From Marinobacter lipolyticus (GTDB lineage Bacteria > Pseudomonadota > Gammaproteobacteria > Pseudomonadales > Oleiphilaceae): a stretch of 64,000 bases of DNA. The DNA is taken from the NCBI RefSeq assembly GCF_018424605.1, contig NZ_QTKT01000006.1:1-64000 (forward strand), read 5' to 3'. Within the stretch, counting starts at the first letter, position 1. Each line of letters opens with the position of its first letter. Below, piece after piece: positions 2,392-30,377 of the stretch. The notes under the pieces are model-generated. The model worked only from the letters and a program-made list of their open reading frames with translations. It was not told the origin of the DNA and ran no database searches. The position numbers and the translations under genes are program-made.

Positions 2392-2486
2392 TTGGTAAGC
2401 GATCTTATGTAACGATTCTGGACATTGATCAAGTGTCCTGAAAATACAATTAATTGTTGCTGAACGATTTCACAGGAGAAGATGGT

Positions 2487-3014: not shown

Positions 3015-3101
3015 TACAGTGTGCTGAGCGCCGCACGATTGCAAGGGCTGGTGAAGGCTTTCCAGCCTAGCTCCAATGAAGTGCAGTTGGGAATAAAACA
3101 G

Positions 3102-4883: not shown

Positions 4884-5629
4884 GCTGTATTCGATCACTT
4901 GCCGCAGTCAGTTTCCTTGCCTCTATTGGTTTCTCAACGACGGTGATAGCTCAGGAAATGATTTCCGATACCACCGCTCGTAAACAACCGCTCACAGCCT
5001 GGGGTGTTCAATTTGAGGAGTTTGAGTACCGATACAGCGATGATGATGAGGAACTGGGCGTCTGGAATGCGGATGCCTTCTATGGCACCGACGAGTTCAA
5101 AGTCCGGCTGCTCACAACCGGGGAATACGAGATAGAGGCACAGGCCTACGAAACACTGGAAAACCAGTTGGTCGGCCAGATCCCCATCTCCAAGTTCTTC
5201 GACGCCAAAGCGGGTGTTCGCTTCGACACCCCTGAAGGGCCGGATCGCACTTATGCCGTGCTGGGTGTCGCTGGGCTTGCCCCACAATGGTTTGAAGTCG
5301 ATGCCAACCTGTATGTTAGCAAGGATGGTGATTCGTCTGCCGAGATCGACGCGGAATACGAGCTGCTGTTCACTAACTACTGGATCCTGTCTGCGACGCT
5401 GGATGCAACGGTAGCATTCAGCGAGGACGAGGAAATTGGCGTGGGTAAAGGCTTGGTTTCCACCGAAACTGGCCTCCGGTTAAGCTATGACTTGATCGAT
5501 CGTGCGTTCTCGCCTTACGTGGGCGTGGTGCATGAGCGCAAGTACGGCGATACCGCAGATCTCGCTAAAGCCGAAGGCGGCGGTACAGAAGACTGGTTTG
5601 CCGTCATCGGTGCCCGCATCGCGTTCTGA
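4880..5629 (+). CDS. copB: outer-membrane copper resistance protein CopB
   Basis: Outer-membrane beta-barrel protein of 249 residues of the CopB/PcoB family, which works with CopA in copper tolerance. It has a signal peptide (1-24, ending VIAQ) and then the family pattern: WGVQFEEFEYR near the N-terminus, alternating beta strands, LGVAGLAPQWFEVDANLYVS in the middle and an aromatic C-terminus (ARIAF) that suits BAM assembly. The His/Met-rich N-terminal extension of some CopB proteins is absent. It is translationally coupled to copA by ATGA overlap and followed by a good terminator, so cupredoxin-copA-copB is one transcript. Confidence 0.9.
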   Translation: MSCIRSLAAVSFLASIGFSTTVIAQEMISDTTARKQPLTAWGVQFEEFEYRYSDDDEELGVWNADAFYGTDEFKVRLLTTGEYEIEAQAYETLENQLVGQIPISKFFDAKAGVRFDTPEGPDRTYAVLGVAGLAPQWFEVDANLYVSKDGDSSAEIDAEYELLFTNYWILSATLDATVAFSEDEEIGVGKGLVSTETGLRLSYDLIDRAFSPYVGVVHERKYGDTADLAKAEGGGTEDWFAVIGARIAF

Positions 5630-6138: not shown

Positions 6139-7494
6139 ATGAGCAGGGAGCAAGATAGAACCACTCGCTATAAGGAAGGCAGTCTCACACTCGCGGGAAC
6201 CGTTATGCTCGGTACCGGCGTCATGATCGGCGCCGGTATCTTTGCACTTACCGGGCAGATGGCGCAGATGACCGGTGTTCTTTTTCCGCTGGCGTTTCTG
6301 GCTGCGGCGGTAATCGTCAGCTTCAGTGCCTATTCCTACATTAAAATTTCCGATGCCTACCCGTCAGCTGGTGGGATTGGCATGTACCTTCACAAGGCTT
6401 ATGGAAACCGGCTGCCGACGGCGTTTAACGCTCTGCTGATGTATTTCTCGATGGTGATCGCCCAGAGCTTTCTTGCGCGCACCTTTGGTTCCTACACCAT
6501 GCAGCTGTTCGGTGGCGATGAAAGCGGTCGCATGGTGCCCATTCTCGGCGTGTCCCTGATCCTGGCAGCGTTTCTGATCAACCTGCTCGGTAACCGAATG
6601 ATTCAGGGGGTGGCCTCCTTCATAGGCATCCTGAAGATCGGAGGCATACTTATTTTCGGGGTCGTGGGTGTATGGGTTGCCGACAGTCTGTTGGTCGACT
6701 TTTCAAGCACGGGCGAAGCCGGAGCAACGGGTAATTTCCTGGGTGCGACGGCACTTGGAATACTGGCCTTCAAGGGCTTTACTACGATCACTAACAGCGG
6801 CTCTGAAGTCATAGATCCCAAGCGGAATGTAGGGCGGGCCATCATTATTTCCATCGCGGCCTGCGTGGTGATTTATACTTTGGTTGGTTTTGCTGTGGCC
6901 AGTAACCTGTCGCTGGCTGAAATCATCGAAACGCAGGATTACTCGCTTGCTGCCGCCGCGCGCCCGGCTCTGGGAGAGTACGCGGTCTGGTTCACCGTTG
7001 CCATTGCCATGATGGCCACCGCCGGCGGTATTCTGGCCAGTATTTTTGCGGTCTCACGTATGCTTGCGATGTTAACCGAAATGAAACTGGTTCCCCATCG
7101 TCATTTCGGTATGCCGGGCAGTATCCAAAAGCACACGTTGGTGTACACCGTGGTCCTGGGGCTGGTTCTGACGGCTTTCTTTGATCTCTCCCGGATTGCA
7201 GCATTAGGTATCGTATTCTATTTGGTAATGGATATTGCCATTCACTGGGGAGTCCTTCGTTATTTGCGCCACGATGTGAAGGCAAAGGCGTGGGTGCCAG
7301 CGGTTGCCATCCTCCTGGATTTGCTCGTACTCGGAGGGTTTGTTTGGGTCAAACTGAACTCTGACCCGTTTGTGATTGGCGTTGCGGTTGGCACGATGGT
7401 TGTTATTGCGGCAGCAGAGCAGTTTTTTCTGAAAAGGTTCCAGGAAACCGGACATTCGGGACATGATGAATCTCATGCCCATGATCACCACTAA
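6139..7494 (+). CDS. APC-superfamily permease with His-rich C-terminus
   Basis: Inner-membrane transporter of 451 residues with about 12 hydrophobic helices. The first helix carries the APC signature GTGVMIGAGIFALTGQ, a broken helix that binds the substrate amino or carboxyl groups, and residues 30-110 continue in the amino acid-polyamine-organocation pattern. Substrate cannot be read. The last residues are GHSGHDESHAHDHH, a His cluster uncommon in this family that could bind metal ions in the cytosol. GGAGG is present before the ATG. It follows the small HMA-like protein by 11 bases and shares its promoter with the TTCAG box, which suggests a role in metal stress, for example uptake of a chelating or protective amino acid. 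Confidence 0.83.
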   Translation: MSREQDRTTRYKEGSLTLAGTVMLGTGVMIGAGIFALTGQMAQMTGVLFPLAFLAAAVIVSFSAYSYIKISDAYPSAGGIGMYLHKAYGNRLPTAFNALLMYFSMVIAQSFLARTFGSYTMQLFGGDESGRMVPILGVSLILAAFLINLLGNRMIQGVASFIGILKIGGILIFGVVGVWVADSLLVDFSSTGEAGATGNFLGATALGILAFKGFTTITNSGSEVIDPKRNVGRAIIISIAACVVIYTLVGFAVASNLSLAEIIETQDYSLAAAARPALGEYAVWFTVAIAMMATAGGILASIFAVSRMLAMLTEMKLVPHRHFGMPGSIQKHTLVYTVVLGLVLTAFFDLSRIAALGIVFYLVMDIAIHWGVLRYLRHDVKAKAWVPAVAILLDLLVLGGFVWVKLNSDPFVIGVAVGTMVVIAAAEQFFLKRFQETGHSGHDESHAHDHH

Positions 7495-8382: not shown

Positions 8383-8398
8383 CGGAGTGCAGACTCCG
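8383..8398. promoter_or_regulatory. inverted repeat just upstream of the complex I-like operon
   Basis: CGGAGT-GCAG-ACTCCG is a perfect 6-bp inverted repeat with a 4-base centre, ending 23 bases before the first gene. A TTGATC at about 8358 with a 17-base gap to TATCGG could be a weak promoter overlapping it. It could be an operator or an mRNA hairpin near the ribosome binding site. No TTCAG box is present here, so this operon appears to be controlled differently from the copper genes. Confidence 0.35.
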
Positions 8399-8421
8399 TT
8401 GCGCGACTTGAGGATTGGATG

Positions 8422-8784
8422 ATGAGTATTTTGGAGCAGTACGGTCTGCTGCTTGCCTTGGTGCTTGGCATCGCAGCTACGGTTTTGGCCCTGTTTGGGA
8501 TTGCCCGTGCCATGGGCCCGACGCGTCGGGAGCCGGGCAAGGACGTGCCAGCGAGTTCCGGAGTGTTGTCACGGGACCCGGTCTGGGGCCGCTATCACGC
8601 ACGGTACTACGGCTACGCGCTGCTCTTTCTGGCCTTCGACATGGAGATGGCGTTCATGTACCCGTGGGCTGTTGTATACAGGGAAGTAGGGTTAGTCGCT
8701 TTGTATGACATGGGCGTGTTTCTTGCCATTCTCTTTCTTGGTCTGCTCTACGGCTGGAGTCAGGGGGCATTGAGGCGGCAATGA
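8422..8784 (+). CDS. complex I subunit A (NuoA)-like membrane protein
   Basis: Inner-membrane protein of 120 residues with three hydrophobic helices. The NuoA signature is clear: YYGYALLFLAFDMEMAFMYPWAVV, with the conserved Asp and Glu of the second helix (FDME) and the YPWA motif. In complex I this subunit lies beside H and helps close the quinone and proton entry region. The first loop is shorter and lacks the usual YESG motif. TTGAGGA at 8408-8414 sits 7 bases before this ATG; another ATG at 8419 is possible. It overlaps the next gene by 4 bases (ATGA) and starts an eight-gene operon whose neighbours are all complex I-like. Confidence 0.87.
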   Translation: MSILEQYGLLLALVLGIAATVLALFGIARAMGPTRREPGKDVPASSGVLSRDPVWGRYHARYYGYALLFLAFDMEMAFMYPWAVVYREVGLVALYDMGVFLAILFLGLLYGWSQGALRRQ

Positions 8785-10595
8785 TTTCTGACCCAACAAT
8801 GACCATTACGGGCGCGCGCCAGCGGCAGGGGGGGTTCACGGTACTTCAGAAGTGGGTTTCCCGGGCTCTCGCGGGCAACCTGAGCTGCCTGATCGTCCCG
8901 GGGCCTGAAGTGGCACTGTCCCATGGCCTGGATGTGACGGCGGCAGGTATGCGCATCACCGCGACACCTCGCGATGCGAGCGTGCTCCTGATTATCGGCG
9001 AGCTTTCAGAGAAAATGAGTGAGGCCGTGGCGGTGCTCTATGCGCAGATGCCGAGGCCGCGAGCCATTGTCATTTTGGGCGGACAGCCGCCGTCAACGCT
9101 ACCGGACGCTGATTTTTCCGCGGGTGTTTCGCAAGCCGGTCTGATCGACGCGGTTGACTGGTTGAAGCGCGCGCTGGCCAAGGGCGCATTCTCAGACTCC
9201 CCCGAGGATTTCGACGCCGCTGTTCTGCACGCCAGGATCGACTATGTCTGCCCCATGCACCCGGAAGTTGTCCAGAACGAGCCGGGTAGTTGCCCCAAGT
9301 GTGGCATGGACCTGGTCGCCCGGGAGGCAGGGGAGCCGGCCCCCGAGCATGACCATGACCATGGGCACGATCATCGCGAGCACCGGCACCATGAGCACGA
9401 ACACCAGCATCATGATCATGCGCAGCAGCACGAACACCATGAACAAGAACGTCATCATGGTCACTGCCATGAACATCATGATTCGCATGAGCACGATCAT
9501 GAGCAGCACGAGGGTCATCAGCACTCGCACGAAAACCATCATGATCACGGACACAAGCACCAGCACGATGAGTCCGACGGCGACGCGGAGGAGAAAGGTT
9601 CTGGGCATGATCATGGTGGGCATGACCACGGCGCCTCGGGATTCATGTCCATGATTGAAGTGACCAAGGACCTGCCTCGTAGCGCCGACGGGTTGGCGAT
9701 GGACTGGATGGAGGTGCCGTTCGGTCCGGTTTTCCCCGGTCTGCCTGGTGGGCTCAAGTTGACGCTGACTCTTGACGGTGACGGCGTAACAGAAGGACAG
9801 GCCACATCCTTGGTGGGCATGATCAATGAGAGTGAAAAAGGCAAGGAGATCGACGCCGAGACCTTTATCGAGCGCCTGGCGTCGGCCATGCCACTGGCCA
9901 GCGTGAGCTACCGACTGCTGGCCTGCCTGGCAATCGAGCGGGCGGCTGGTCTTGAGAACGATTCGGCAACCGATCAGGCCCGGGCCGTGGCGCTTGAATG
10001 TGAGCGCATCGCCAGTCACCTGGGTTGGCTGGCGCAAACGGGGCGCCAGCTCGGCTTCGCCTGGTTGACGGATCGTGCCGCAACCCTGCAACTGGAGATC
10101 CGCCGCGCCAGTGGAAAACGGCTTTTGGAACTGACGCCCGCTCTGCAGGCATTGGCGGCTCGTCTTGGGCGAACGCCTTTGCTCAAATCGCGATTGAAGG
10201 GGATCGGCATACTGCCATCGGGCACTGGGGGCCTGAGTGGCCCCGTGGCGCGCGCTGCTGACGACGCCGGAGATGCCTGGGCGCGCCTGTGGCAGCGCCT
10301 GGACGAAATCATCACGAGCCTCGACTACATCAAGGCAACCGGGGAGCCGGGGCTACCTGTTTTGCGAAACATCGGGCGTGGATCAGGCACCGGTGAGGCC
10401 ACCGTGGAAACCCCGCGCGGCGAGGCTCAACTGAGCCTGATTCTGGAACACGGCCAGGTGAAATCCTACAGGTTGGACACCGCCTGCAGTCACCATATCG
10501 GCCTGGTCGCAAAGCTTGTCGAGGGCCGGGAACTGGGCGACGCACTGGTGGCGGTCGGATCACTTGACCTTTCGCCCTGGGAGGTGATCTCGTGA
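8781..10595 (+). CDS. NuoB-like / heavy-metal-binding / His-rich / NuoD-like fusion protein
   Basis: Fusion protein of 604 residues. Residues 20-135 align with complex I subunit B (ITATPRDASVLLIIGELSEKM, then LYAQMPRPRAIVILG, matching the VLRASPRQADLMVVAG and LYDQMLEPKWVISMG pattern), but of the four Cys that hold cluster N2 only one (C36) remains. Residues 155-177 are a heavy-metal-binding domain, YVCPMHPE...CPKCGMDL, as in CusB and some Cu-ATPases. Residues 190-283 contain about 39 His. Residues 310-604 resemble subunit D (EVPFGPVFPGLPGGLKLTLTLDG, ASVSYRLLACLAIERAAG, ECERIASHLGWL). The GPxHPAxHG loop, whose His lines the quinone site, has lost both His. No NiFe-type CxxC pairs occur. The fusion takes the place of B, C and D in a nuo order. 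Function unknown; a metal-sensing or metal-binding peripheral arm is inferred. Confidence 0.85.
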   Translation: MISDPTMTITGARQRQGGFTVLQKWVSRALAGNLSCLIVPGPEVALSHGLDVTAAGMRITATPRDASVLLIIGELSEKMSEAVAVLYAQMPRPRAIVILGGQPPSTLPDADFSAGVSQAGLIDAVDWLKRALAKGAFSDSPEDFDAAVLHARIDYVCPMHPEVVQNEPGSCPKCGMDLVAREAGEPAPEHDHDHGHDHREHRHHEHEHQHHDHAQQHEHHEQERHHGHCHEHHDSHEHDHEQHEGHQHSHENHHDHGHKHQHDESDGDAEEKGSGHDHGGHDHGASGFMSMIEVTKDLPRSADGLAMDWMEVPFGPVFPGLPGGLKLTLTLDGDGVTEGQATSLVGMINESEKGKEIDAETFIERLASAMPLASVSYRLLACLAIERAAGLENDSATDQARAVALECERIASHLGWLAQTGRQLGFAWLTDRAATLQLEIRRASGKRLLELTPALQALAARLGRTPLLKSRLKGIGILPSGTGGLSGPVARAADDAGDAWARLWQRLDEIITSLDYIKATGEPGLPVLRNIGRGSGTGEATVETPRGEAQLSLILEHGQVKSYRLDTACSHHIGLVAKLVEGRELGDALVAVGSLDLSPWEVIS

Positions 10596-11488
10596 ACTTC
10601 GTCATCGTGTTGGTTGCGTTGCTTGGTAGCGTCTGGCTGCTCGCCGTGGTCGAGGGCTGGACGACAACGGGCCGCCTGCGTCCGGCCGCGCCCCTACTCA
10701 GCGGCCTGGCGCACCTCGGTCGTGAATCCATTGTACCGCGCACGCCGGACCGGGTCTTTTTCGAGACGGCGCCGGTGCTACTGCTGATCGTCGCGGTGCT
10801 TGGCGCGGCGGTTCTGCCGCTGGCGCCGACCCTGGTGATCGCGGATCTGGCTACCGGTGCGCTGTTCATCAACGCGGCGCTTGCCTATGTGCTGGTGGCG
10901 CTGATCATGGCCGGCTGGGGCCCGAATGGCGCCTACGCCATGATCGGCGGCTGGCGATTCCTTGGCCAGCTCATCGCCTACGCCATGCTCATTGTCATGC
11001 CCATCACTGCGGTGGCGATGCGCGCCGAATCCCTGGTGACCACGGTGATCGTTGGCTCCCAAGGCGGCTTGTGGAACATTGTCTATCAGCCGCTTGGTTT
11101 CGTGCTGTTTTTCATTGCCGCCATGGCGCTGGCGTTTCGTGCGCCTTTTGATCTGCCAACCGCACCCGGGGAACTGGGCGGGGGTGTGGACGCGGAATAC
11201 ACCGGCGTGCGCCTGGGGGTGTTGCGCCTGGCCAGGCTGACGCTGGTGATCACGCTGGCTTCCGCGACCACGGTGTTCTACCTCGGCGGTTGGCACGGGC
11301 CGCTGCTGCCGCCCTGGGCCTGGAGCCTGATCAAGACCCTGGCCGTGGCCGTGTCGATGCTCCTGGCCGGTCGCTATCTGCCGCGCATTCGCGAGGCGGA
11401 TCTGATGCGGTGGTGCTGGACCCTGGGGATTCCCCTGGCACTGCTCAATATCATTGTTGTCGGTTTACTGGTTCTGGTGGTTCCATAA
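10592..11488 (+). CDS. complex I subunit H (NuoH)-like membrane protein
   Basis: Inner-membrane protein of 298 residues, about eight helices, matching NuoH along its whole length: IVPRTPDRVFFETAP, AGWGPNGAYAMIGGWR, FRAPFDLPTAPGEL and DAEYTGVRLG. H forms the quinone chamber and the entry to the membrane ion path. Here the almost invariant Glu of the SYE motif is Ala131 (IAYAML), and the PEAE motif reads PTAP, so two more acids are lost; E194 and E202 remain. The GTG start overlaps the previous stop (GTGA). The stop overlaps the next start (TAATG), and the ferredoxin subunit I that normally follows H is absent. Confidence 0.88.
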   Translation: MNFVIVLVALLGSVWLLAVVEGWTTTGRLRPAAPLLSGLAHLGRESIVPRTPDRVFFETAPVLLLIVAVLGAAVLPLAPTLVIADLATGALFINAALAYVLVALIMAGWGPNGAYAMIGGWRFLGQLIAYAMLIVMPITAVAMRAESLVTTVIVGSQGGLWNIVYQPLGFVLFFIAAMALAFRAPFDLPTAPGELGGGVDAEYTGVRLGVLRLARLTLVITLASATTVFYLGGWHGPLLPPWAWSLIKTLAVAVSMLLAGRYLPRIREADLMRWCWTLGIPLALLNIIVVGLLVLVVP

Positions 11489-12024
11489 TGTACGCTCAGG
11501 CTTTTTTTGTTGCCGTTTTCGGGCTGGCCGCCATCGGCTTCGGCGTGGTGGTGTTTCGCACATCGTCCATGGTGCGTTCCGCGCTGGCGCTGTTGTTTTC
11601 TCAGACTGCCGTCGGCTGCATGTTCCTGGCGATGCAGACCGAATTCCTGGGCGTGCTGCAGATCATGATGATGGCGACGGAGATGAGCATCATGGCCATT
11701 TTCATGGTGATGTTCATGATGGACCCGGGCGGGATGGGGGGCATGGATATGACCCACCAGAAGCGCTTTTCAATTGGCGCTGGCGTGGTCGCTGCCGGTG
11801 TTGCGATAGTGGTCGCGTTTTGGGCCGATTGGGGACCTGTAACGGCCGAGGCGCCGGATGCGGCGATGCAGACACGGGCGCTGGGCATGGAATTGCTGGG
11901 TCGTTCCATGCTGATCTTCGAAACCGCCGGTATCACTATCCTGACCGCGATGATTGCGGCCACGGCGGTGGCGATACCGGTGCAAACGACGGCCAATAGT
12001 GCTGACAAGGAGGATACGGAATGA
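11488..12024 (+). CDS. complex I subunit J (NuoJ)-like, Met-rich
   Basis: Inner-membrane protein of 178 residues with five hydrophobic helices in the NuoJ pattern, including TEFLGVLQI, which corresponds to the AEFLAVVQV helix with the pi-bulge that links the quinone region to the membrane antiporters. The following helix and loop are unusually rich in Met: 12 Met in about 31 residues (about 57-87), ending DPGGMGGMDM. Ordinary NuoJ has Val, Leu and Phe there. Met clusters in membrane proteins often serve Cu(I), so this may be functional, but that is inference. It overlaps H by one base and K by four. Confidence 0.85.
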   Translation: MYAQAFFVAVFGLAAIGFGVVVFRTSSMVRSALALLFSQTAVGCMFLAMQTEFLGVLQIMMMATEMSIMAIFMVMFMMDPGGMGGMDMTHQKRFSIGAGVVAAGVAIVVAFWADWGPVTAEAPDAAMQTRALGMELLGRSMLIFETAGITILTAMIAATAVAIPVQTTANSADKEDTE

Positions 12025-12332
12025 CTCTCGTCCTGATCGTGGCGCTTGTAACCGGTGCAATCCTGTTCGGTATTGGTGTTTATGGCGCGTTGTCCCAGAC
12101 CAATCTGGTTATGATCATGATGGGGGTGGAGCTGATTCTTGCGGGCGCGTTGGTGAACCTGGTCGCCTTCTGGCGTTTTCTGCACCCCGAAAGCTACTCC
12201 GGCCAGATGTTCGTGCTGGTGGTGATGACCGTCATGGCGGTCGAAATGGCGGTTGGCTTCGGTGTCGCGATTGCGCGTTTCCGGGCCAAGGGCTCGGTTG
12301 AAATGGAAGAAGCCGGGGACCTGAAAGGATGA
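12021..12332 (+). CDS. complex I subunit K (NuoK)-like membrane protein
   Basis: Inner-membrane protein of 103 residues with three helices. Both key acids of NuoK are kept: E37 in MMGVELILAG and E75 in AVEMAVGFGVAIARF, which in complex I relay charge from the quinone end toward the antiporter subunits. It is also homologous to MrpC of Mrp antiporters, but the gene order (J-K-L-M-N) points to complex I. It overlaps J and L by ATGA. Confidence 0.9.
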   Translation: MTLVLIVALVTGAILFGIGVYGALSQTNLVMIMMGVELILAGALVNLVAFWRFLHPESYSGQMFVLVVMTVMAVEMAVGFGVAIARFRAKGSVEMEEAGDLKG

Positions 12333-14227
12333 GTGCAGTGCTTCTACCGATAATGCCACCGCTGATCGCGGCCATGGCGTTGCTGGTCCTGCGCCGGGGC
12401 TCCACGGCGCTGGTTCTCGGCGGGGCGACGTTGAGTCTGGGCGGCAGTCTATGGTTACTGACCCGGGTCGCCGGCGGGCAGGCCGAAACCCTGCTTCTGC
12501 CGGGGCTGCCAGACATGCCGCTTCGAATGGTTGCCGGACCTCTGGAAGCGCTGTTGACGGTGGCGGTGGCCACCGTAGGCACGTTCGTGCTGATTTATGC
12601 AGTTGGTTATATGAAGCGGGAGTCCGGCCTGTGCCGCTTCTACGCCGTAATGTCCCTGTTCCTGGCTGCCATGCAGGCGTTGGTGCTGTCCGGCGACTGG
12701 GTTCTGTTGCTGGCGGCCTGGGAATTGATCGGTTTGTGCAGTTACCTGCTGATTGGCTTCTGGTTCCAGCGACCCGAGGCCGCGGATGCCGCCGGTCGCG
12801 CTTTCCTCTACACTCGTAGCGCCGATCTGGGTTTGTACGTGGCGGTATTTATGCTGATTGGGTCGGCCGGTACCGGCGAGATTGCCGCCTCCCTGGAGGC
12901 CGGCGGCAGTGCCTCGACTGCCGCGGGGCTTTTGTTGCTGCTGGCCGCCATGGGTAAGTCGGCCCAAGTCCCCTTGCAGGACTGGCTTATGCGCGCGATG
13001 GCGGGGCCGACACCGGTTTCGGCGCTGCTGCACTCGGCCACCCTGGTGGCGGCGGGTGCCATCCTGCTGATCCGTTCGGCCCCGCTGCTGACACCGGAGG
13101 TGTTGCTCGTCGTCGGACTTGTCGGCGGCGTTACCACGGTGGCGGCCGGAGTTATTGCACTTGCCGAGCGTGATCTCAAACGCCTGCTTGCCGCTTCCAC
13201 TGCCAGTCAATATGGCTTGATGCTGGTTGCGGTTGGAGCCGGCGTTCCGCTGGCGGCCCTCCTGCATTTGCTCGCCCACGCCGCCATCAAGAGCACCCTG
13301 TTTCTTGCCGCCGGAGACTTCCAGCATGCCCGCGGGGGTACCGGGTTCGATCAGTTGGAGGGTGTTGGTCGTGACAGACCCTGGACTTTTGCCGGCTTTG
13401 TGCTGGCAGCGCTGGCACTGGCCGGTATCCCGCCACTGAGTGGGTTCTTTTCCAAGGACGCGGTAATCGCCGCCGCCCTGTCTGCGCAGGGCACCGCCTG
13501 GCTCGGCCCCCTGGCGCTGGCCGGTGCCCTGCTGACCGGCGGCTATATGGCCCGGGCCTTGTGCCTGCTATGGCGAGGCTCCGGAGAAACCCGCCCGGTT
13601 GCCGGTAGTGCCTGGATGACTTTGGGCGTTTGGGGGTTGGCGGTCCCTGCCACGATTCTCGGCCTGGCCTTCGGCCCCATCGAGGCCGTTCTTGATCTGC
13701 CCGCCGTCACCGCAGGCACATTGGCCGTGCTCCTTGGGCTTCTTGCTGCCGCGTGCGGCCTCGGCCTGGGCTGGCTCGTGCCGGCTCCCCGCCTGCTAGG
13801 GCCGGTTTATCCGTGGGCGCGACGCGGACTTTCCGTTGGCGGTGGGCTTACGGTCTGGGTCGGTAGGCCCGCAATGGCTGTGGCCCGAGGATGTGAGCGT
13901 TTGGAAGGGCGTCTGTATGAAGCTGTGCTTTCTCTTGGGCGCGCCGGTCTCTTCCTTGCCTCTGCGGGCGAGCGAGCGGAGCGGGGCTTGTTCAAGATTG
14001 TGCTTTGCGTGGGCAGAGTGAGCCTGAGGGTCGCGACCTACGTGCGGTTTGGAGATGAACGCCGTATCGACGGCCTGATTTTCGCCCTGGTGGCGGCTGT
14101 GCGTGCACTGGGTGCACGAGCCCGAAACCTCCAAAGCGGCCTCATCCACCACAGCCTGGCGATCAGTGCGGTCGCAATCGCCGTCACATTGGCTGTTCTG
14201 CTTTTTGCTTCATCGACGAGCTTTTAG
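12329..14227 (+). CDS. complex I antiporter-like subunit L (NuoL)-like
   Basis: Inner-membrane protein of 632 residues. The antiporter core (about 1-450) keeps the residues essential in NuoL and Mrp: E132 in WELIGLCSYLLIGFW, K210 in MGKSAQVPLQDWL, H235 in LLHSATLVAAG, H317 and K321 in LLAHAAIKSTLFLAAGD, and K376-D377 in SGFFSKDAVI. The C-terminal 180 residues contain the long amphipathic region and last helix that in complex I form the lateral bar along M and N. The open reading frame is intact. Conservation of the ion path suggests it still moves protons or Na+. Confidence 0.9.
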   Translation: MSAVLLPIMPPLIAAMALLVLRRGSTALVLGGATLSLGGSLWLLTRVAGGQAETLLLPGLPDMPLRMVAGPLEALLTVAVATVGTFVLIYAVGYMKRESGLCRFYAVMSLFLAAMQALVLSGDWVLLLAAWELIGLCSYLLIGFWFQRPEAADAAGRAFLYTRSADLGLYVAVFMLIGSAGTGEIAASLEAGGSASTAAGLLLLLAAMGKSAQVPLQDWLMRAMAGPTPVSALLHSATLVAAGAILLIRSAPLLTPEVLLVVGLVGGVTTVAAGVIALAERDLKRLLAASTASQYGLMLVAVGAGVPLAALLHLLAHAAIKSTLFLAAGDFQHARGGTGFDQLEGVGRDRPWTFAGFVLAALALAGIPPLSGFFSKDAVIAAALSAQGTAWLGPLALAGALLTGGYMARALCLLWRGSGETRPVAGSAWMTLGVWGLAVPATILGLAFGPIEAVLDLPAVTAGTLAVLLGLLAAACGLGLGWLVPAPRLLGPVYPWARRGLSVGGGLTVWVGRPAMAVARGCERLEGRLYEAVLSLGRAGLFLASAGERAERGLFKIVLCVGRVSLRVATYVRFGDERRIDGLIFALVAAVRALGARARNLQSGLIHHSLAISAVAIAVTLAVLLFASSTSF

Positions 14228-14242
14228 AGGAAACCCATATTC

Positions 14243-15712
14243 ATGTTACCACTTGTCTCGCTCACCCTGTTTTTGCCGCTGGTCGGCGCGGTGCTGATTC
14301 TGTGTCTTCCGAAGCCCGCAACGCGTACGGTACACGTCATAGCGATTATTACCGCCGCCCTTACACTGATCGGTGCTCTGTCCATGTGGTTTCAGGGTGC
14401 GAGCGGTGCAGGCTTTTCCCAGGTCGAAGAGCTGCAATGGATACCGGCCATCGGTGCCGCCTACCGGGTTGGAGTTGATGGGATCAGTCTGCCTTTGGTG
14501 CTGTTGAGCGCTGTTCTTTTCCTGGTTGCTGTGATCTATACGTCGTCGCTTCGTGAACGTCCGCGCGCCTATATTGCTCTGGTACTTCTTCTGGAAACTG
14601 CGTCTATCGGTACCTTTACAGCCCTCGACGGTATCCTGTTCTACGTCTTCTTCGAGGTTTCCCTTGTCTCCATGTATTTCATGATCGCCGGGTGGGGCCA
14701 CGAAGACAGGCAACGGGCAGCGTTGATGTTTTTTATATACACCTTGCTGGGAAGTCTGCCGCTTCTGCTTGCTATCCTCGGGCTTTATCTGGGCAGCCCC
14801 GAACCGACCTTCGACATGCGAGCCTGGATTGAGAATCCCCCCTTGGAGGGTGCGGCGGCCATGTGGGCATTGGTCGCTATGCTGATCACCTTTGCGGTAA
14901 AAATCCCCGCGGTGCCGCTGCATACCTGGTTGCCCGCCGCACACGTGCAGGCGCCGACCGTCGGCAGCGTCATCCTCGCCGGCGTCATGCTGAAATTCGG
15001 CACTTACGGGCTGGTTCGATTTGCTCTGCAAATGACCCCCGATGCGTTCCGTGAAGCGGGCGTTGTTGTTCTTGTTCTCGGTGTTGTCAGCGCGCTCTAC
15101 GGGGCTTTTGCCGCTCTGGCCCAGAGTGATCTGAAACGCTTGGTCGCCTATACGTCGGTTAACCACATGGGGTATGTCATTGTCGGTGTGGCCGTGGCGG
15201 CAATAACTCTGGATCCCTCGGTGCGAACTGTTGCTTTGGATGGTGCGGTATTGCAGATGTTCAGCCATGGACTGGTTACCGGTGCCTTGTTCTTGCTGGT
15301 GGGCATGATCCAGGACCGTGCCCACACCCGTGAAATGGGCGAATTGGGTGGGTTGCTCAAGACGGTCCCAATGCTCGGCTGGACCTTTGTGTTGGCGGCC
15401 TTTGCATCGCTGGGCTTGCCCGGGCTGGCGCACTTTCCGGCCGAGTTTCAGATATTTCTTGCCACTTTAAGCGCTTCGCCTGCCGCGGTGGTTGTGATTT
15501 TGGGTATTGCCATTATTGCCGGTACGTTTCTCAAAGCACTGCGGGAAACCTTTCTGGGCGAGCCCCGGCAGCGCTGGCAGTCCATGCCTGATTTGAGCGC
15601 TCGTGAGTGGCTTGCTGTGGGGCCATTGCTGGTGCTCACTGTCGGCACTGGCGTGGCACCCTCCTGGGTGCTGGGTATCATCCACCGCACTACATCGGCG
15701 CTGGCACTGTGA
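14243..15712 (+). CDS. complex I antiporter-like subunit M (NuoM)-like
   Basis: Inner-membrane protein of 489 residues with about 14 helices. Key residues are present: E138 in FYVFFEVSLVSMYFMIAGWG, K220 in FAVKIPAVPLHTWLP, H227 and H234, and K251 in VMLKFGTYGLVRF. It is therefore expected to have a complete half-channel like NuoM. AGAGGAAA precedes the ATG by 11 bases. It is the only junction in this operon without overlap (15 bases after L). Its stop shares one base with the next start. Confidence 0.92.
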   Translation: MLPLVSLTLFLPLVGAVLILCLPKPATRTVHVIAIITAALTLIGALSMWFQGASGAGFSQVEELQWIPAIGAAYRVGVDGISLPLVLLSAVLFLVAVIYTSSLRERPRAYIALVLLLETASIGTFTALDGILFYVFFEVSLVSMYFMIAGWGHEDRQRAALMFFIYTLLGSLPLLLAILGLYLGSPEPTFDMRAWIENPPLEGAAAMWALVAMLITFAVKIPAVPLHTWLPAAHVQAPTVGSVILAGVMLKFGTYGLVRFALQMTPDAFREAGVVVLVLGVVSALYGAFAALAQSDLKRLVAYTSVNHMGYVIVGVAVAAITLDPSVRTVALDGAVLQMFSHGLVTGALFLLVGMIQDRAHTREMGELGGLLKTVPMLGWTFVLAAFASLGLPGLAHFPAEFQIFLATLSASPAAVVVILGIAIIAGTFLKALRETFLGEPRQRWQSMPDLSAREWLAVGPLLVLTVGTGVAPSWVLGIIHRTTSALAL

Positions 15713-17073
15713 TGGCTCGTGATCTTGCACTGTTGATTCCTGAAATTGCCGTACTGTTGACGGCTGTCGGTGCGCTGATCGCGGAAATGCTGCGTAGGCC
15801 GCAAATTGCGCTGCTGGTCGCAGTTAGCGGTCTGATCGTTGCCACGGGTCTGACCGTCAGTCTGATTGGTGAGGACACAACGGTGTTTGGTGGCAGTTTC
15901 CGGGTTGACGACCTCAGTGTGTGGGCCAAACTCATTCTGCTGCCGGCCACCATCCTCGCCATATTTTTGGCGAGAGTGGATGTGAGAGGCACCGTGCGAG
16001 AGGGCACGGTTTACAGCCTGCTTTGCTTTGCCACCATCGGCGCGCTCGTTCTGGCAGGCGCGGGTGATACGATGTTCCTTGTACTGGGTACATTATTAAC
16101 TGGCCTGGCCACCTTTGCCTTGGTTGCCTACCCGGATACCGACCCTGCCACAGAGGCCGCCATGAAGTTTTTCGTGTTCGCCTCGGTCACAGGTGCGATC
16201 ATGATTTTCGGCCTGAGTTACTGGTTCGGCGCTGCGGGATCCACGTTACTCGCGGATCTTCCTGGTATGGATACCATGCCAATGGCGGTTCTTCTTGGGT
16301 TCGTGGCGGTGGTTGTCGGTCTGGGTTACAAAGCCTCGCTGGTTCCATTCCATTTCTGGGCGCCAGATGCCTATGAGGGTGGGCCACTGTCAATAGCGGC
16401 CTACCTGTCAGTGGTGCCCAAGATCGGTGCTCTGTTCGCACTCGCTCAGGTGGTTCGCGATCTACCCCCGGAAAGTGGTTGGACCGCCATCATCGCCGGG
16501 CTGGCTGTTCTGACCATGACCTATGGTTATCTGGCCGCGCTGGTGCAGGATAACGTCGTTCGGCTGCTGGCCTATTCGTCGATTGCCCAATCCGGCTATT
16601 TCCTTCTGGGTATCCTGGCAGTCGGCGCCAGTGAACTTGCTCTGCCATCCATTATACTGTTTGCTGCCGCCTATGCGGCCATGAATCTGGGCGCTTTCGC
16701 CGTTGCCGCCAATATCGGACGGACTCTGAACGATTTTGACGGATTGGGTCGATCTCAACCGCTTATTGGCATCGCTATGGTGATCTTTTTGCTGTCGCTG
16801 GTTGGGATTCCCCCATTGGCGGGTTTTGTCGGCAAGTTCCTTTTGTTTGCCGCAGCCATCGACGTGCAGTACACCTGGGTGGCAGTGGTGGCGATCATCA
16901 ATAGCGTACTCTCGCTGGCTGTTTATCTGCGCCTCGTTGTGCCGATGTACAGGCAAGGGAATGTCGTGGTGGCTAGAACTGATATCTGGTTGAAAGCCGT
17001 ACTGATAATAGCGCTGACTGTCACACTCCTTTTGGGTGTATTTGCGCAAGTGTTTGTAGGGCCGTTTGCATGA
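15712..17073 (+). CDS. complex I antiporter-like subunit N (NuoN)-like
   Basis: Inner-membrane protein of 453 residues. NuoN features include GLGYKASLVPFHFWAPDAYEG (with the channel Lys), VVPKIGALFALAQVV (second Lys), LLAYSSIAQSGYFLLG and GFVGKFLLFAAAI. The Glu of the LGIELLSL motif of NuoN, one of the channel acids, is replaced: the site reads LGTLLTGL with L128 at the Glu position. The start at 15712 was chosen because the ATG overlaps the M stop (TGATG); longer versions would lie inside M. It ends the operon; the next gene is convergent. Confidence 0.9.
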   Translation: MARDLALLIPEIAVLLTAVGALIAEMLRRPQIALLVAVSGLIVATGLTVSLIGEDTTVFGGSFRVDDLSVWAKLILLPATILAIFLARVDVRGTVREGTVYSLLCFATIGALVLAGAGDTMFLVLGTLLTGLATFALVAYPDTDPATEAAMKFFVFASVTGAIMIFGLSYWFGAAGSTLLADLPGMDTMPMAVLLGFVAVVVGLGYKASLVPFHFWAPDAYEGGPLSIAAYLSVVPKIGALFALAQVVRDLPPESGWTAIIAGLAVLTMTYGYLAALVQDNVVRLLAYSSIAQSGYFLLGILAVGASELALPSIILFAAAYAAMNLGAFAVAANIGRTLNDFDGLGRSQPLIGIAMVIFLLSLVGIPPLAGFVGKFLLFAAAIDVQYTWVAVVAIINSVLSLAVYLRLVVPMYRQGNVVVARTDIWLKAVLIIALTVTLLLGVFAQVFVGPFA

Positions 17074-17594: not shown

Positions 17595-17950
17595 AATCTA
17601 TCCAGCCAATCTAATAACTTCAGGCAGCCGAAGTTGAAATCGCAACCCTTCATCGCAGCGGCCTCCTGACCACCCGATAATTCGGAAATGGCCAGAACCG
17701 GTCCACCCAAAAACAACGGCAGCAGCAAGGAGATAACTCGTCGGTTCATTGCGGCCATCTCGATTTCATGCGCCAAATGGTCGGATTGCATGCTTGGCGC
17801 CCAGTATGCCTTTCAATAGTGAGCAATCATAGCACCTCTCCAAGATGGGCGCTGGGTGCGAAATAGCCTCTTTGATGCGTCGTCAGGTCTGACAGTCTGA
17901 CGGGTGGGGATGTCAGTACGAAAATCGGGAAAATGAAATTTAGCTGAAAA
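17595..17950. other. intergenic region without a convincing gene
   Basis: A short minus-strand frame starting near 17750 has a signal-like stretch (MNRRVISLLLPLFLGGP) but overlaps the membrane protein gene and ends in unstructured sequence; I do not call it. A small imperfect palindrome, 'tctgacagtctgacgg', lies at about 17887-17902. The rest shows nothing I can name. Confidence 0.4.
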
Positions 17951-17967
17951 TTCAGGTTCGTTTCAGT
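17951..17967 (+). promoter_or_regulatory. TTCAG-N6-TTCAG box upstream of the 18075 porin
   Basis: TTCAGGTTCGTTTCAGT has two perfect pentamers 11 bp apart, 108 bp before the porin start. CAAGCT lies ten bases beyond as a weak -10. It suggests that the porin is in the same regulon as the copper genes. Confidence 0.6.
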
Positions 17968-18074
17968 TGACCACTACAAGCTTTGTGCGTCAAGATTAAG
18001 TGCCGTTTAACTGGCACATCCACCTTGAGGCAATAAATCGTTGTCGATATGAAAATTAAAATAAGGAGTTTCAG

Positions 18075-19430
18075 GTGAGCAAAATCTTCAAATCAATAAG
18101 CGCTCCGCTGGCGATAGCTTTAGTAGCAACACCGGCGTTGGCCGCGGAGCCGGTCGGGCGTGCGTCACCGACCGTAGAAGACCTGAAGGTTGAAATAAAT
18201 CAACTGACGGCTGAAGTGGAAGAGCTCAAGAAAGGCGATTCCCCCTTCACGGTGAACGGTTATTACCGCCTGCAGGCGACCTCAGAAAGCCTAGATACGA
18301 CCGACGATAACAGTACTGCTTTTGTTGACCAGCGCCTGCGTGCAAAGATCACCGGCGACCTCAACGATAACGTGAGCCTGGTTTGGTACGGTGAGGTCGA
18401 TTCTCCCTGGGGTGAGAAGGGAAGCTGCCAGGGTGACGATTGCGGCAAACTCAGCGCCGACGGCGTTGGCGTTGAGACCAAAAATGCCTACGCTGAACTG
18501 AAGGTGCCGAACAGCGACTGGAAGGTGCGAGCGGGCATCCAGGGGTATGGCTTCGGCAAGTACGAGAGCTTTGTTACCAACGACGACATGAATGGCGTCT
18601 CCTTTGCGGGCAATGTTGGTATGGCCACGCTGACAGGTGGCTGGTTCAAGTGGGAAGAAAACGATAGAGATTCTGCGGACGACGTGGACTTCTACATGTT
18701 GAGTGCCGAACTTCATCCCAGCGAGGTTTTCCACTACGGCCTTACCGGAGCTCAGATCAGCAACAGCAGTCCGGATGCTCTGAATGGTACGGCGGCTCGA
18801 ACGGATGACAACTATTTCGGTGCCTACGCCGATTTTACCTATAACAAAATGGCCTATAGCGGCTCGGTACTTTACAAAAAGTCGTCCGGGCGTGACTCTG
18901 ACGCAACAGATGGCGACACGTACATGTTGAATCTGTATGCCCAGAGGCATTGGGGTAACGCAAGCCTCAAGATTCACGGCATCTACATTCCGGCTGATGA
19001 CAGCAGCAATGGTGCAGATCGCTTCGCGGCAAACCAGTCAGGCTGGGAGCTGAATAGCAGCAATCTGCAAATCTTCGGAACAGACTACTACTACAACAAT
19101 GGTTCCCAGGGGGCCAAGTCAGTTTATGACGCAGCTTACCAGGGATACGGTCTGATGGGGCTGATAGTCTCGGGTGATCAGGAGCTTTCCAACGACTACT
19201 ATCTGAAGTACGGCACCGGTTACTTCCGCGCTGCCGATGACGCGCCCGACAGCGCAGCTCAGGCCAACGGCTCAAGTCTTGGTACTGAAGTGGCTGCCCA
19301 GGTTGGGAAAAAGTTTGCTGGCTTGTATGACATCAGCCTCCGCGGCTCTTACGGTTTCATGGGGGACTTCTACGGAGATGACCCGGAGGATACCTATAAG
19401 GTCGTAGCTATGGTCAATATCAGTTACTGA
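18075..19430 (+). CDS. outer-membrane porin
   Basis: Beta-barrel porin of 451 residues. A signal peptide (1-23, ending ALAAEP) is followed by a short coiled coil (VEDLKVEINQLTAEVEELKKG), as in trimeric porins that anchor to peptidoglycan or trimerise at the N-terminus. Then come many amphipathic strands and an aromatic terminal strand (VAMVNISY). The GTG start is supported by AAGGAG at 18063-18068. Substrate is unknown. A TTCAG box lies upstream, so it may be produced under metal stress, perhaps to change outer-membrane permeability. Confidence 0.82.
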   Translation: MSKIFKSISAPLAIALVATPALAAEPVGRASPTVEDLKVEINQLTAEVEELKKGDSPFTVNGYYRLQATSESLDTTDDNSTAFVDQRLRAKITGDLNDNVSLVWYGEVDSPWGEKGSCQGDDCGKLSADGVGVETKNAYAELKVPNSDWKVRAGIQGYGFGKYESFVTNDDMNGVSFAGNVGMATLTGGWFKWEENDRDSADDVDFYMLSAELHPSEVFHYGLTGAQISNSSPDALNGTAARTDDNYFGAYADFTYNKMAYSGSVLYKKSSGRDSDATDGDTYMLNLYAQRHWGNASLKIHGIYIPADDSSNGADRFAANQSGWELNSSNLQIFGTDYYYNNGSQGAKSVYDAAYQGYGLMGLIVSGDQELSNDYYLKYGTGYFRAADDAPDSAAQANGSSLGTEVAAQVGKKFAGLYDISLRGSYGFMGDFYGDDPEDTYKVVAMVNISY

Positions 19431-19599: not shown

Positions 19600-20373
19600 C
19601 TAAAACCACCACCGGACGCCCGCCACGAAGCTGGAGGACTCGACGTCTTCCCCCTCGCGCTCACGAAGGTCCTCTGTGTTGCCCAGAAAGCGGGTGTAAG
19701 AAACACCCACGTAGGGCGCAAACTCCCTCGAAAAGTGGTATCTCAGACGGAGCCCCAGGCCCACATTATTGATGCCACTACCGACGCCCCACTCCTCAAC
19801 ATCGCTGAAGGCAACGAGCGTTTCGCCGCGGCCCTGCAAAATGAGCCTTTGGGTCAGCAGCCAGTCGTACTCGGCTTCAAGATCGTATGACACGTCACCG
19901 TCGTCGGTGACTCGGAGATTTGTGTCTACCTCAAACCAGTAGGGGGCAAGTCCCTGCAATCCAACAATGGCCGAATAGCGCTCCTTATTAGGGCTGGGGC
20001 CAAACGTTGTCTGGGCACCCAATCCTGTCTGTATATCCCAGAAGCGATCGAAGCGATAGCTGTACTGCACATCAAAATTTTCGATGTCGCCGCTGTCGCT
20101 GGATAGATCAGTCTCACCTTCCGTTTCGACCCAGAGCCGATTGCGATCTTTACCAATCCAGGCCTGGGCGTCCCACAGGGCCAATTCGTTGTCGCCGTCA
20201 CGCTGGTATTCCATCCGGTCAAACAGAACCTGGCCAAACACCTGGTTGTCGTGTATCGGCAGCGTCCAGTCCGGTTCGGCCTGAACGCCAGTACCGGCGG
20301 CGCCGGCTCCCGAGGCAAGCGTTAAGGCTGAGGCACCCACAACCCACTTGATGCGATTCATCATAATGTTCAT
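19600..20373 (-). CDS. copB: second outer-membrane copper resistance protein CopB
   Basis: CopB-family outer-membrane barrel of 257 residues (254 if it starts at the ATG at 20364, which is better spaced from GGGGA). A signal peptide ends near GAGAAG. Family landmarks are VFGQVLFDRMEYQ, ELALWDAQAWIG, IVGLQGLAPYWFEVDTNL and the terminal GVRWWF. It has the same architecture as the copy at 4880-5629 but is clearly diverged, so the two are not a recent duplication. It follows the second copA by 11 bases in one operon. Expected role: copper sequestration or export across the outer membrane together with CopA. Confidence 0.9.
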   Translation of the reverse strand: MNIMMNRIKWVVGASALTLASGAGAAGTGVQAEPDWTLPIHDNQVFGQVLFDRMEYQRDGDNELALWDAQAWIGKDRNRLWVETEGETDLSSDSGDIENFDVQYSYRFDRFWDIQTGLGAQTTFGPSPNKERYSAIVGLQGLAPYWFEVDTNLRVTDDGDVSYDLEAEYDWLLTQRLILQGRGETLVAFSDVEEWGVGSGINNVGLGLRLRYHFSREFAPYVGVSYTRFLGNTEDLREREGEDVESSSFVAGVRWWF

Positions 20374-20384
20374 CCCCTATCCCG

Positions 20385-22250
20385 TTAAACGACCGACACG
20401 ACACGAAACATGCCTGCGTCCATGTGGTACAGAAGGTGGCAATGGAAAGCCCAGTCACCCGGTGCATCCGCTGTGATCAGCGCGGATACACGCTCGCCGG
20501 GTTTGACGGAAATCGTGTGTTTGCGTGGACGATATTCACCTGCACCGGTTTCCAGTTCCATCCACATGCCATGCAGGTGAATGGGGTGATCCATCATCGA
20601 GTCGTTGACGAGGATCAATCGCAGGCGCTCGCCATGGTAGAACTTGACCGGGCCATCGACTTCAGAGAACTTTTTGCCGTCGAACGACCACATGTAACGT
20701 TCCATATTGCCGGTAAGGTGCAGTTCCACCTCGCGTTCGGCCGGGCGCTTGTCGGGCCAGCCCTCAATGCTCTGCAACTGGGAATAAGTCAGCACCCGAT
20801 GGTTGGCTGTTTCAAAGCCTACACCAGGGTCATCCAGACGCGATTGCGGGCTGGAAGCCACCATGGCCGCCCCGGGACCGTGATTATCAGGGCCATGGGA
20901 TATCGGCCGACCCGCCGTCGGGACCTCATTCATCGTTGCTTTGTCCGAGCTCATCTTGTTCATTCCCGAGTCGGCGCCATTCATCATCATTTGGCCATGG
21001 GCTTTGTCGTTGCTGCCTGACATCATTTCCATCTTGCCACCCATGTCCATGCCGCTGTCCATGTTCATATCGCCGTCCTTGCCCATGGCGCCCATGCTCA
21101 TCGCGCCCATGCCCATGGCGGCCATACCGCGCTCGGTTCGCGGATACATGGGCGGTACTGGCGCCTCCATTCCCTTGCGGGTGGCTAACGTTCCGCGCAC
21201 ATACCCCGACCGATCCTGTGACTGGGCAAACACGGTGTGGGCCGTACCGGTTGGCTGTACGATCACGTCGTAGGTTTCCGCCACGCCAATACGGAATTCA
21301 TCCGTTTCAACGGGCTGCACTGGCTGGCCGTCAGCGGAAATAACCGTCATCGGGAGTCCCGGGATACGGACATCAAAGAAGGTCATCGCCGAGGCATTGA
21401 TGAATCTCAGGCGAATTTTCTCGCCGGGACGGAACAGCCCGGTCCAATTGCTGGCGGAAGGCGATCCGTTCATCAGATAGGTATATTCAGAACCGGTTAC
21501 ATCCAGGATATCCCGGGGGCTCATTCGCATTTTGCCCCACATGCCGGCTTTGTTCCACGCAGCATCCCAGCCCATGGTTTCAACATCCTTGAAGAAGTCG
21601 CCAACGGTGCGCTGGTTGTAGTTATAGTAGCCTTCTGCCACTTTAAGCTTGCGGAATACGTCCTCGGGAGAGTCAAAGGTCCAGTCGGAGAGGACCACAA
21701 CGTATTCGCGATCATAGGCCACCGATTCCGGCTCGGCAGGATCAATGATAATCGGCCCATAGTGGCCTAGCTGTTCCTGAAGGCCTGTGTGGCTATGGTA
21801 CCAGTAGGTGCCGTGTTGCTCGACCGGGAAACGGTACTCAAAAGTTTCGCCGGGCATGATGCCGGGAAAGCTGACGCCAGGAACTCCGTCCATCTGAAAC
21901 GGCAGAATCAGACCGTGCCAGTGAATGGACGTTGCCTCCGGTAGCGTATTGGTGACACGCAAGATTGCCTCGCGCCCCTGTTTGAGGCGCACGAGGGGTG
22001 CCGGCAGCGTGCCGTTAATGGTGATGGGCTGTTCCGAGACTCTGCCCCCTATCTTGAGAGGCGTTCTCGCGACGGTCAGGTCGTAGATGTCAGCACCATT
22101 ACGCACAGTGTGAAAGGCATTCGTGTTGTCCAGTTGTCCTCTAGCATAGGCAGGTAACAAGCTGTCGAAACCGGCAAGAAGTCCCATTGTGGCAGCTCCT
22201 TGGATGAGGCGGCGCCTGGACACACCTGTACAGAAATGTCTATCGCTCAT
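20385..22250 (-). CDS. copA: second multicopper oxidase CopA (Tat-exported)
   Basis: Periplasmic CopA-type multicopper oxidase of 621 residues. The N-terminus has a twin-arginine signal (SRRRLIQGAA, R12-R14), so it is exported folded with copper already loaded. Copper motifs are HWHG (110-113), HSH in WYHSHTG, HPIHLHGMW and HCHLLYHMDAGMF. The Met-rich insert (MGAMSMGAMGKDGDMNM and onward) has a different repeat unit from the first CopA. It heads an operon with copB. A TTCAG box on the minus strand about 72 bases upstream and the divergent second two-component system suggest local control. Confidence 0.94.
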   Translation of the reverse strand: MSDRHFCTGVSRRRLIQGAATMGLLAGFDSLLPAYARGQLDNTNAFHTVRNGADIYDLTVARTPLKIGGRVSEQPITINGTLPAPLVRLKQGREAILRVTNTLPEATSIHWHGLILPFQMDGVPGVSFPGIMPGETFEYRFPVEQHGTYWYHSHTGLQEQLGHYGPIIIDPAEPESVAYDREYVVVLSDWTFDSPEDVFRKLKVAEGYYNYNQRTVGDFFKDVETMGWDAAWNKAGMWGKMRMSPRDILDVTGSEYTYLMNGSPSASNWTGLFRPGEKIRLRFINASAMTFFDVRIPGLPMTVISADGQPVQPVETDEFRIGVAETYDVIVQPTGTAHTVFAQSQDRSGYVRGTLATRKGMEAPVPPMYPRTERGMAAMGMGAMSMGAMGKDGDMNMDSGMDMGGKMEMMSGSNDKAHGQMMMNGADSGMNKMSSDKATMNEVPTAGRPISHGPDNHGPGAAMVASSPQSRLDDPGVGFETANHRVLTYSQLQSIEGWPDKRPAEREVELHLTGNMERYMWSFDGKKFSEVDGPVKFYHGERLRLILVNDSMMDHPIHLHGMWMELETGAGEYRPRKHTISVKPGERVSALITADAPGDWAFHCHLLYHMDAGMFRVVSVV

Positions 22251-27727: not shown

Positions 27728-27741
27728 AATGGCTCCCGGAA

Positions 27742-29043: not shown

Positions 29044-29064
29044 AATGAATATCCAGTTTCCAGA

Positions 29065-30285: not shown

Positions 30286-30377
30286 CGACTTTCTCCCGAA
30301 GGGGTTGTTAGCCACAATTCATGGGGGCGAGACGCCCATGACAAGGTAGGTAGAGGTGGAGATAGTAAGTGAAAAGG

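Follow-up and report, generated by a model that had tools for sequence, protein, structure and literature searches.

A stretch of 64,000 nucleotides from Marinobacter lipolyticus (contig NZ_QTKT01000006.1, positions 1 to 64,000; hereafter the window) carries at 8419–17073 on the forward strand an operon of eight complex I-like genes, which belongs to a conserved family that has lost most of its redox residues and whose membrane subunits NuoJ, NuoK and NuoA share gained methionines. Our reading, tentative and with a probability close to even, is that protons drive the export of Cu(I) or Ag(I) by this relative of complex I. It draws on the gene set, the loss of redox residues, the methionine gain, the channel residues kept in NuoL and NuoM and the copper genes nearby, all of them legible in the sequence.

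A complex I-like operon without a redox module

The eight intact genes run in the order nuoA, a B~D fusion, nuoH, J, K, L, M and N (Table 1), with successive overlaps of 4, 4, 1, 4 and 4 bases, a 15-base gap between L and M and a 1-base overlap between M and N; the starts of nuoJ and nuoN were taken from the bases directly. These open reading frame coordinates bear out a preliminary description of the DNA, made from its letters alone, in which eight genes in nuo order were said to overlap by 1–4 bases or to lie 15 bases apart. All seven membrane subunits (A, H, J, K, L, M and N) gave Pfam matches over cut-off (194.5 bits for NuoH), and one 6-base palindrome lies upstream of nuoA (8383–8398). 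Within the fusion, NCBIfam places a NuoB-like part at residues 34–101 and a NuoD-like part at 310–428, and Pfam a NuoD stretch at 537–597. With PF19335 at residues 155–180 and 39 of the fusion's 46 histidines in residues 183–300, B and D are joined through a heavy-metal-binding domain and about 40 histidines, as previously proposed. The cysteines of the fusion are solely at residues 36, 157, 171, 174, 229, 382, 407 and 569, and the single CxxC pair (171–174) lies inside the metal-binding domain.

NuoC was present in 53 of 60 sampled genomes, and from these we hand-picked 20 canonical operons for comparison, of which 17 gave NuoB and 19 or 20 the other subunits; among the 90 relatives described below, B parts could be cut out of 48 fusions and D parts out of 89. 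Relative to the 17 canonical NuoB proteins, three of the four cysteine positions that hold the iron–sulphur cluster N2 are lost in all 48 aligned B domains, which rules out an ordinary N2 cluster. The two histidines of the NuoD motif HPxxHG, which we take to be the quinone site, are both replaced in 98–99% of the 89 D domains (versus 20 canonical NuoD), and NuoH has lost its RxGPN loop and several conserved acids, presumably at the quinone chamber. The operon holds no gene for C, E, F, G or I, as stated earlier, and no iron–sulphur subunit was found in it by Pfam. Subunit searches and lost N2 and HPxxHG residues thus agree with the earlier view of an operon without a redox module. The channel residues of NuoK, NuoL and NuoM are retained in our alignments, again as first described, and NuoN lacks the glutamate of its fifth transmembrane helix (TM5).

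Such an operon might be a copper-tuned complex I that borrows the NADH arm of an ordinary one. In the whole host genome, NuoC and NuoE had no match, the match to NuoF was RnfC instead, the matches to NuoI lay at that Rnf locus and were below cut-off, and the fusion was the sole match for NuoD and, below cut-off, for NuoB. The search for assembling partners, raised as a check in the preliminary description, therefore found no C, E, F or I to borrow in the host genome, NuoG being outside that genome-wide search; after these searches, which covered NuoB, C, D, E, F and I, we rejected a borrowed redox arm for this genome. NqrA is present, so NADH oxidation is likely served by Nqr. NuoC does occur in three of the four other sampled family genomes, which makes borrowing conceivable there, the fourth (G193) having no match. 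Two Marinobacter relatives have a canonical-looking nuoA downstream of the operon (L013, 19485–19892; L015, 17765–18172), and a Halomonas metagenome-assembled genome has distant L, M and N homologues upstream of it (L021, 923–5744). Set against the loss of three N2 ligands and the quinone-site histidines, these points leave a borrowed arm very improbable.

Copper itself could be the redox fuel. In the available part of their report, Eddie and co-workers noted in 2021 a related operon among, and co-regulated with, the copper genes of Marinobacter, although one gene alone of the M. atlanticus operon passed the authors' fold cut-off, and they put forward copper redox as a power source (PMC8233155); electrons from Cu(I) oxidation would then power ion pumping. 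The methionine sites described below could hold redox copper, and 27 of the 48 B domains retain one N2 cysteine position. However, with three N2 cysteines, the quinone-site histidines and the NuoH RxGPN loop lost, and with no iron–sulphur subunit in the operon by Pfam, no electron acceptor site is evident, and we consider a copper-redox pump improbable.

A conserved family and its methionine core

Searching protein databases with the fusion and listing gene neighbourhoods, as the preliminary description had suggested, uncovered a recurrent family, often near copper genes. Of 7994 candidates scored, 1020 were fusion-like at E ≤1e-3, a number that may include proteins matched chiefly via the metal-binding domain. 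One scan of genome contigs, from which 80 of 120 confirmed loci were kept, and ten plasmid loci together gave 90 relatives with the fusion (type I). All eight genes are present in 73 of these, in identical order in 73 of 73, and fifteen of the remaining 17 end at contig edges; the other two are a two-gene remnant (L006) and a locus without M and N (L032). Because 73 of 90 relatives keep eight genes in one order, and because dN/dS ratios of 0.05–0.14 (seven genes other than the fusion, against two relatives) point to strong purifying selection, chance is excluded, and the operon is confirmed as a real conserved family and not a one-off.

Hosts include Marinobacter, Halomonas, Alcanivorax, Rhodobacterales, Brevundimonas, Neopusillimonas and the actinobacterium Rubrobacter. 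The family is rare, occurring in 5 of 398 genomes of a Pseudomonadota sample; a cut-off of E 1e-10 gave 23 matches there, of which the remaining 18 reach at most 54 bits (versus at least 322 for the four other members) and are read by us as canonical NuoD or hydrogenase proteins. No relative was found in one scan of viral contigs, and distant blastn gave no match to the J–K stretch in E. coli genomes. Mean column identity is 45% for the fusion (21-row alignment) versus 81% for NuoJ (12-row alignment). A pattern for the metal-binding domain matches 83 of the 90 fusion entries; of the seven others, three are split genes with the domain in the other half, one is cut at a contig end, one is the remnant, and two are taken up below. 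The domain can also form tandem arrays, with 10, 11 and 10 copies in P0074, P0110 and P0119 and six in the L055 open frame, compared with a single copy in the window.

The strongest clue, absent from the preliminary description, is the methionine enrichment of NuoJ and NuoK. Methionine makes up 10.7% of NuoJ (85 members) versus 3.7% in 19 canonical proteins, and 9.3% of NuoK (86 members) versus 3.5% in 20. Its fraction is slightly raised in NuoA (0.046 versus 0.036) and lowered in NuoH (0.034 versus 0.039), NuoL (0.026 versus 0.042), NuoM (0.037 versus 0.048) and NuoN (0.033 versus 0.050); since L, M and N are poorer in methionine than their canonical counterparts, the gain in J and K is not a drift in genome composition. 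The type I sets exclude L071, in which A and BD are alphaproteobacterial-like and the rest marinobacterial-like, and non-fusion proteins below 38% identity to the window, and column counts for A, H, J, K, L, M and N exclude proteins more than 20% off in length. The gained methionines lie in NuoJ TM3 and the loop after it, beside Glu37 and Glu75 of NuoK and around Asp74 and Glu76 of NuoA, and NuoJ has further gained Glu65, where all 19 canonical proteins have alanine. A strict TM3 motif is found in 82 of the 87 type I loci that have nuoJ in view; a DNA pattern for the methionine-rich NuoJ matches 3 of the 398 genomes, all of them family members, and the other two members carry a one-residue variant.

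Searching plasmids with NuoJ yielded a far-diverged second type (type II) in Arthrobacter FB24, Halomonas KO116 and Acuticoccus, and a further search brought the records to 31, type I included. We judged type II on eight loci chosen from plasmid records (L145–L152), each with A, a gene X, H, J, K, L, M and N. By eye, X reads like a decayed B~D protein; in L149 part of it carries no annotation, in L151 an insertion sequence breaks it up, and none of seven X proteins checked has a CxxC pair, the metal-binding motif or HPxxHG. Several X proteins have a linker rich in methionine and histidine, those of L148 and L152 are His-rich, and a His-rich NuoJ tail is present in five of the eight loci (L145, L146, L147, L150 and L151). 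By their record descriptions, plasmids of Mycobacterium avium, M. intracellulare and M. paragordonae also hold type II NuoJ homologues (H39, H44–H48).

Columns conserved in at least 90% of type I and in seven of eight type II loci were counted as shared. NuoJ has 33, of which 12 are methionine, and shared methionines lacking in most canonical rows number 11 in J, 3 in K and 2 in A, with none in L, M or N. Overall, methionine fills 19 of 88 shared columns in J, K and A versus 5 of 268 in L, M and N (Fisher p 8e-9). Glu65 and His90 of NuoJ, His60 of NuoA and the loss of the NuoN TM5 glutamate are likewise common to both types. Trees were built with 41 type I rows in one and 20 in that of NuoM, which sets both types opposite 19 canonical rows (support by a quick method: type I 99, type II 94, canonical 100); its long branches meet, as the program warned, so the joining of the two types is unproven. 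We describe the family as two far-diverged types that between them span at least two phyla; it is the metal-binding fusion that varies and the methionine core that both types keep, the second without the metal-binding domain. Metal gating by the fusion, as first imagined, would then be only part of the picture.

Copper neighbourhood and a proposed export mechanism

Copper genes flank the operon on both sides in the window (Table 1); of its two resistance–nodulation–division (RND) genes, that at 30864–33971 is over the CusA/CzcA family cut-off and that at 24530–27727 has 41% identity with a sequence annotated as CusA/CzcA. A copper or metal marker lies within 10 kb of 43 of 88 type I loci and of 31 of the 51 with full flanks, compared with 0 of 20 control stretches, an association and not proof, as the markers were partly derived from the family's own neighbours, which weakens the figure as support for export. 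This count excludes L006, L071 and the window, and the controls were placed at chosen fixed positions, two of them in the host genome. Seven of nine annotated type I plasmid loci (L003–L005 and L007–L012, the exceptions being L011 and L012) and six of eight type II loci (L145, L146, L147, L149, L150 and L152; not L148 or L151) also lie with copper or heavy-metal genes. In the Curtobacterium type II locus, genes for a heavy-metal-associated (HMA) protein and a P-type ATPase stand directly upstream on the same strand, the ATPase gene ending 81 bases away. Among twelve marker-free loci viewed by eye, no other single function stands out.

The operon could nevertheless be an ordinary Mrp-like Na+ or K+ antiporter riding copper islands, its methionines merely protecting against copper damage or tuning lipid packing. 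L, M and N are antiporter-like and many loci have no copper marker in view, yet the shared methionine gain is restricted to J, K and A, and L, M and N hold less methionine than normal in the same membrane; to this explanation we give little credence.

Lysine and arginine per length are highest in NuoJ loops 1–2 and 3–4 and its C-terminus, which would for that reason be cytoplasmic, in agreement with the canonical fold as we take it to be, on which this topology partly leans. On this topology, three features would be turned towards the cytoplasm: the His-rich linker of type I, the His-rich tail seen in part of type II, and the MxMxH loop of NuoJ. As a soft ligand, methionine suits Cu(I) (PMC9433437); in CusA a methionine relay is coupled with the import of protons (PMC8092243), and in Ctr1 methionines form a filter for Cu(I) (PMC6437178), hence our inference of a soft metal as substrate. 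Following from these precedents, we postulate that the His-rich linker and metal-binding domain of type I, or the NuoJ His tail in part of type II, would catch cytoplasmic metal, which would pass, still on the cytoplasmic side, to the MxMxH loop of NuoJ and, in type I, the FMSM motif, and would move along the TM3 methionines beside Glu65 and the NuoK glutamates, while protons entering via L and M would drive shape changes that push it across the membrane. In net terms, complex I coupling would run backwards with metal in place of quinone chemistry. The whole picture, of a mobile proton-driven copper and silver pump that has diverged far into two types and spans at least two phyla, its J/K/A methionine relay replacing the quinone-driven channel, is one that we hold possible but less than even in probability. 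From the machine linked to the proton-motive force and controlled or driven by metal binding that was initially proposed, the link to metal and the kept proton channels carry over; what changes is that a soft metal, Cu(I) or Ag(I), would be handled within the membrane by J, K and A.

Several observations weigh against export. The TM3 methionines show no clustering on one helix face (helical wheel p 0.72), the structure model of NuoJ is poor (predicted local distance difference test, pLDDT, 51), which leaves a continuous metal path hypothetical, and NuoH has no gained methionine common to both types. Three of eight type II loci have neither the metal-binding domain nor the NuoJ His tail, and of the two remaining type I entries missed by the domain pattern, L074 has a variant domain and L091 truly lacks one. 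The marker is absent from 20 of the 51 full-flank loci, and ordinary copper exporters are present too at some family loci. In L032 (M. salarius) L is broken and M and N are lost, as reported for M. atlanticus, and the fourth N2 position, C36, is kept in the window fusion and in the 27 B domains given above.

The unsupported metal path (pLDDT 51; helix-face p 0.72) also agrees with a different role, in which copper at the methionine core and linker is a signal that is not itself transported and gates H+ or Na+ flow through L and M, as a leak or antiporter. L and M keep their lysine and glutamate, the methionines adjoin the kept NuoK glutamates in sequence, and L, M and N have no shared methionine gain, all as such a gate would have it. 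However, methionines run along the whole of NuoJ TM3 and 11 gained ones are kept in both types, seemingly more ligands than one gate needs, and we regard gating as rather unlikely. Should proton-driven export be correct, the family would be a new class of copper/silver resistance pump, on plasmids and chromosomes. Complex I is the best-studied redox-driven pump, and how its electron chemistry is linked to distant proton channels is still debated. A relative that keeps the coupling core and pumps with no evident redox chemistry would be a clean test object, and if metal binding in the NuoJ and NuoK helices drives, or is driven by, proton flow, coupling could be studied without quinone.

Other recurrent neighbours were seen. 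The gene at 6139–7494 encodes an APC-type amino acid permease whose C-terminus is rich in histidine; of 88 type I loci, 24 have a match to it less than 10 kb away, and permeases 73% and 53% identical to it stand upstream in type II loci L146 and L147, making it a recurrent partner. A 394-residue protein occurs near the operon in L055 (6806–7990), L056 (17462–18646) and L052 (7808–8992); its cluster is beside the operon in 8 loci, and neither Pfam nor NCBIfam gave a match for the L055 copy. Repeats like CTGAATTCAG and CTGAAAATTCAGG, possibly copper-response sites, lie at 2286–2490 and 17595–18075, upstream of the cupredoxin and porin genes, and none was seen by eye upstream of nuoA.

Table 1. 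The operon, its domains and motifs, and copper genes on either side, in window positions.
Feature	Position	Strand	Basis or remark
Cupredoxin, multicopper oxidase and CopB-like genes (flanking)	2454–5629	+	See text
nuoA-like	8419–8784	+	Gained H60, M75, M77, M80 beside kept D74, E76
NuoB~heavy-metal-binding domain~His-rich~NuoD fusion, 604 residues	8781–10595	+	Pfam, NCBIfam
NuoB-like domain	8838–9179	+	Of the four N2 cysteine positions, C36 alone remains
Heavy-metal-binding domain PF19335 (CPMHP...CPKCGM), fusion residues 155–180	9243–9320	+	Pfam
His-rich linker, 39 His	9327–9680	+	Low model confidence, likely disordered
FMSM motif, fusion residues 288–291	9642–9653	+	M289, M291 conserved across family
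NuoD-like domain	9711–10589	+	HPxxHG histidines replaced by F318, P322
nuoH-like	10592–11488	+	RxGPN loop and several conserved acids lost
nuoJ-like, methionine-rich	11488–12024	+	Pfam, alignments
NuoJ TM3 methionine stretch, residues 60–78, gained E65	11665–11721	+	Alignments
NuoJ TM3–4 loop, residues 86–93: M86, M88, H90	11743–11766	+	Alignments
nuoK-like	12021–12332	+	E37, E75 kept; M31, M69, M72, M76 gained
nuoL-like	12329–14227	+	Channel Glu and Lys kept
nuoM-like	14243–15712	+	Channel Glu and Lys kept
nuoN-like	15712–17073	+	Keeps its lysines but not the TM5 Glu (residue 128)
Second CopB-like and multicopper oxidase pair (other flank)	19600–22250	-	See text
Two RND efflux pump genes and CusB-like adaptor gene	24530–33971	-	See text

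Comparison with known systems

Among the papers listed or consulted in a literature search, such an operon was found described in PMC8233155 only, and a text search of PMC11371751, PMC10030979 and PMC8478169 returned no mention of nuo, NADH or complex I. The nuoADHJKL operon of M. atlanticus (PMC8233155) is likewise complex I-like and lies inside, and is co-regulated with, copper genes, and is very likely of the same family; it differs in that M and N are reported missing there. The available part of that description is silent on a fusion or a metal-binding domain, and likewise on a methionine core, lost redox ligands and any wider spread. The system first put forward as a candidate new one is thus not wholly new, a relative of the operon having been noted in 2021.

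With respiratory complex I (Nuo/NDH-1), the family has all of the membrane subunits A, H, J, K, L, M and N in common. It departs from it in that C, E, F, G and I are missing from the operon, three N2 cysteines, the HPxxHG histidines and RxGPN are lost, B and D are fused via a metal-binding linker, and J and K are methionine-rich.

In group 4 [NiFe] hydrogenases (Mbh, Mbs, FHL), two CxxC pairs of the large subunit bind NiFe. The fusion shares the large-subunit fold, its profile matching MbhL best (6cfw_L, E 2.9e-23) and the motif PFGPxxPGL recurring, and some database names read Ni,Fe-hydrogenase III large subunit, but the window protein has no CxxC pair outside the metal-binding domain, and the operon has NuoA and three antiporter-like subunits. 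Ehr complexes are group 4-like, lack the NiFe ligands and keep Fe–S subunits; here three of four N2 ligands are lost and no Fe–S subunit is found in the operon by Pfam, a separation made by description. Mrp antiporters resemble the family in their antiporter-like L, M and N with conserved lysine and glutamate and in having no redox subunits, whereas the operon has A, B~D and H homologues; to our knowledge, Mrp antiporters have no homologue of NuoA, NuoB, NuoD or NuoH. The earlier statement that the set fits none of the known complex I branches therefore holds for those tested (complex I, group 4 hydrogenase, Ehr and Mrp), and we file the family as a variant within the complex I superfamily, which would be a new kind of metal transporter if it does pump copper. 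In that case its nearest functional parallels would be CusA, of the heavy-metal efflux RND (HME-RND) pumps, and Ctr1, which likewise use transmembrane methionine ligands for Cu(I), coupled to protons in CusA (PMC8092243, PMC6437178, in the portions available); these are unrelated proteins, whereas the relay proposed here would sit in a complex I scaffold.

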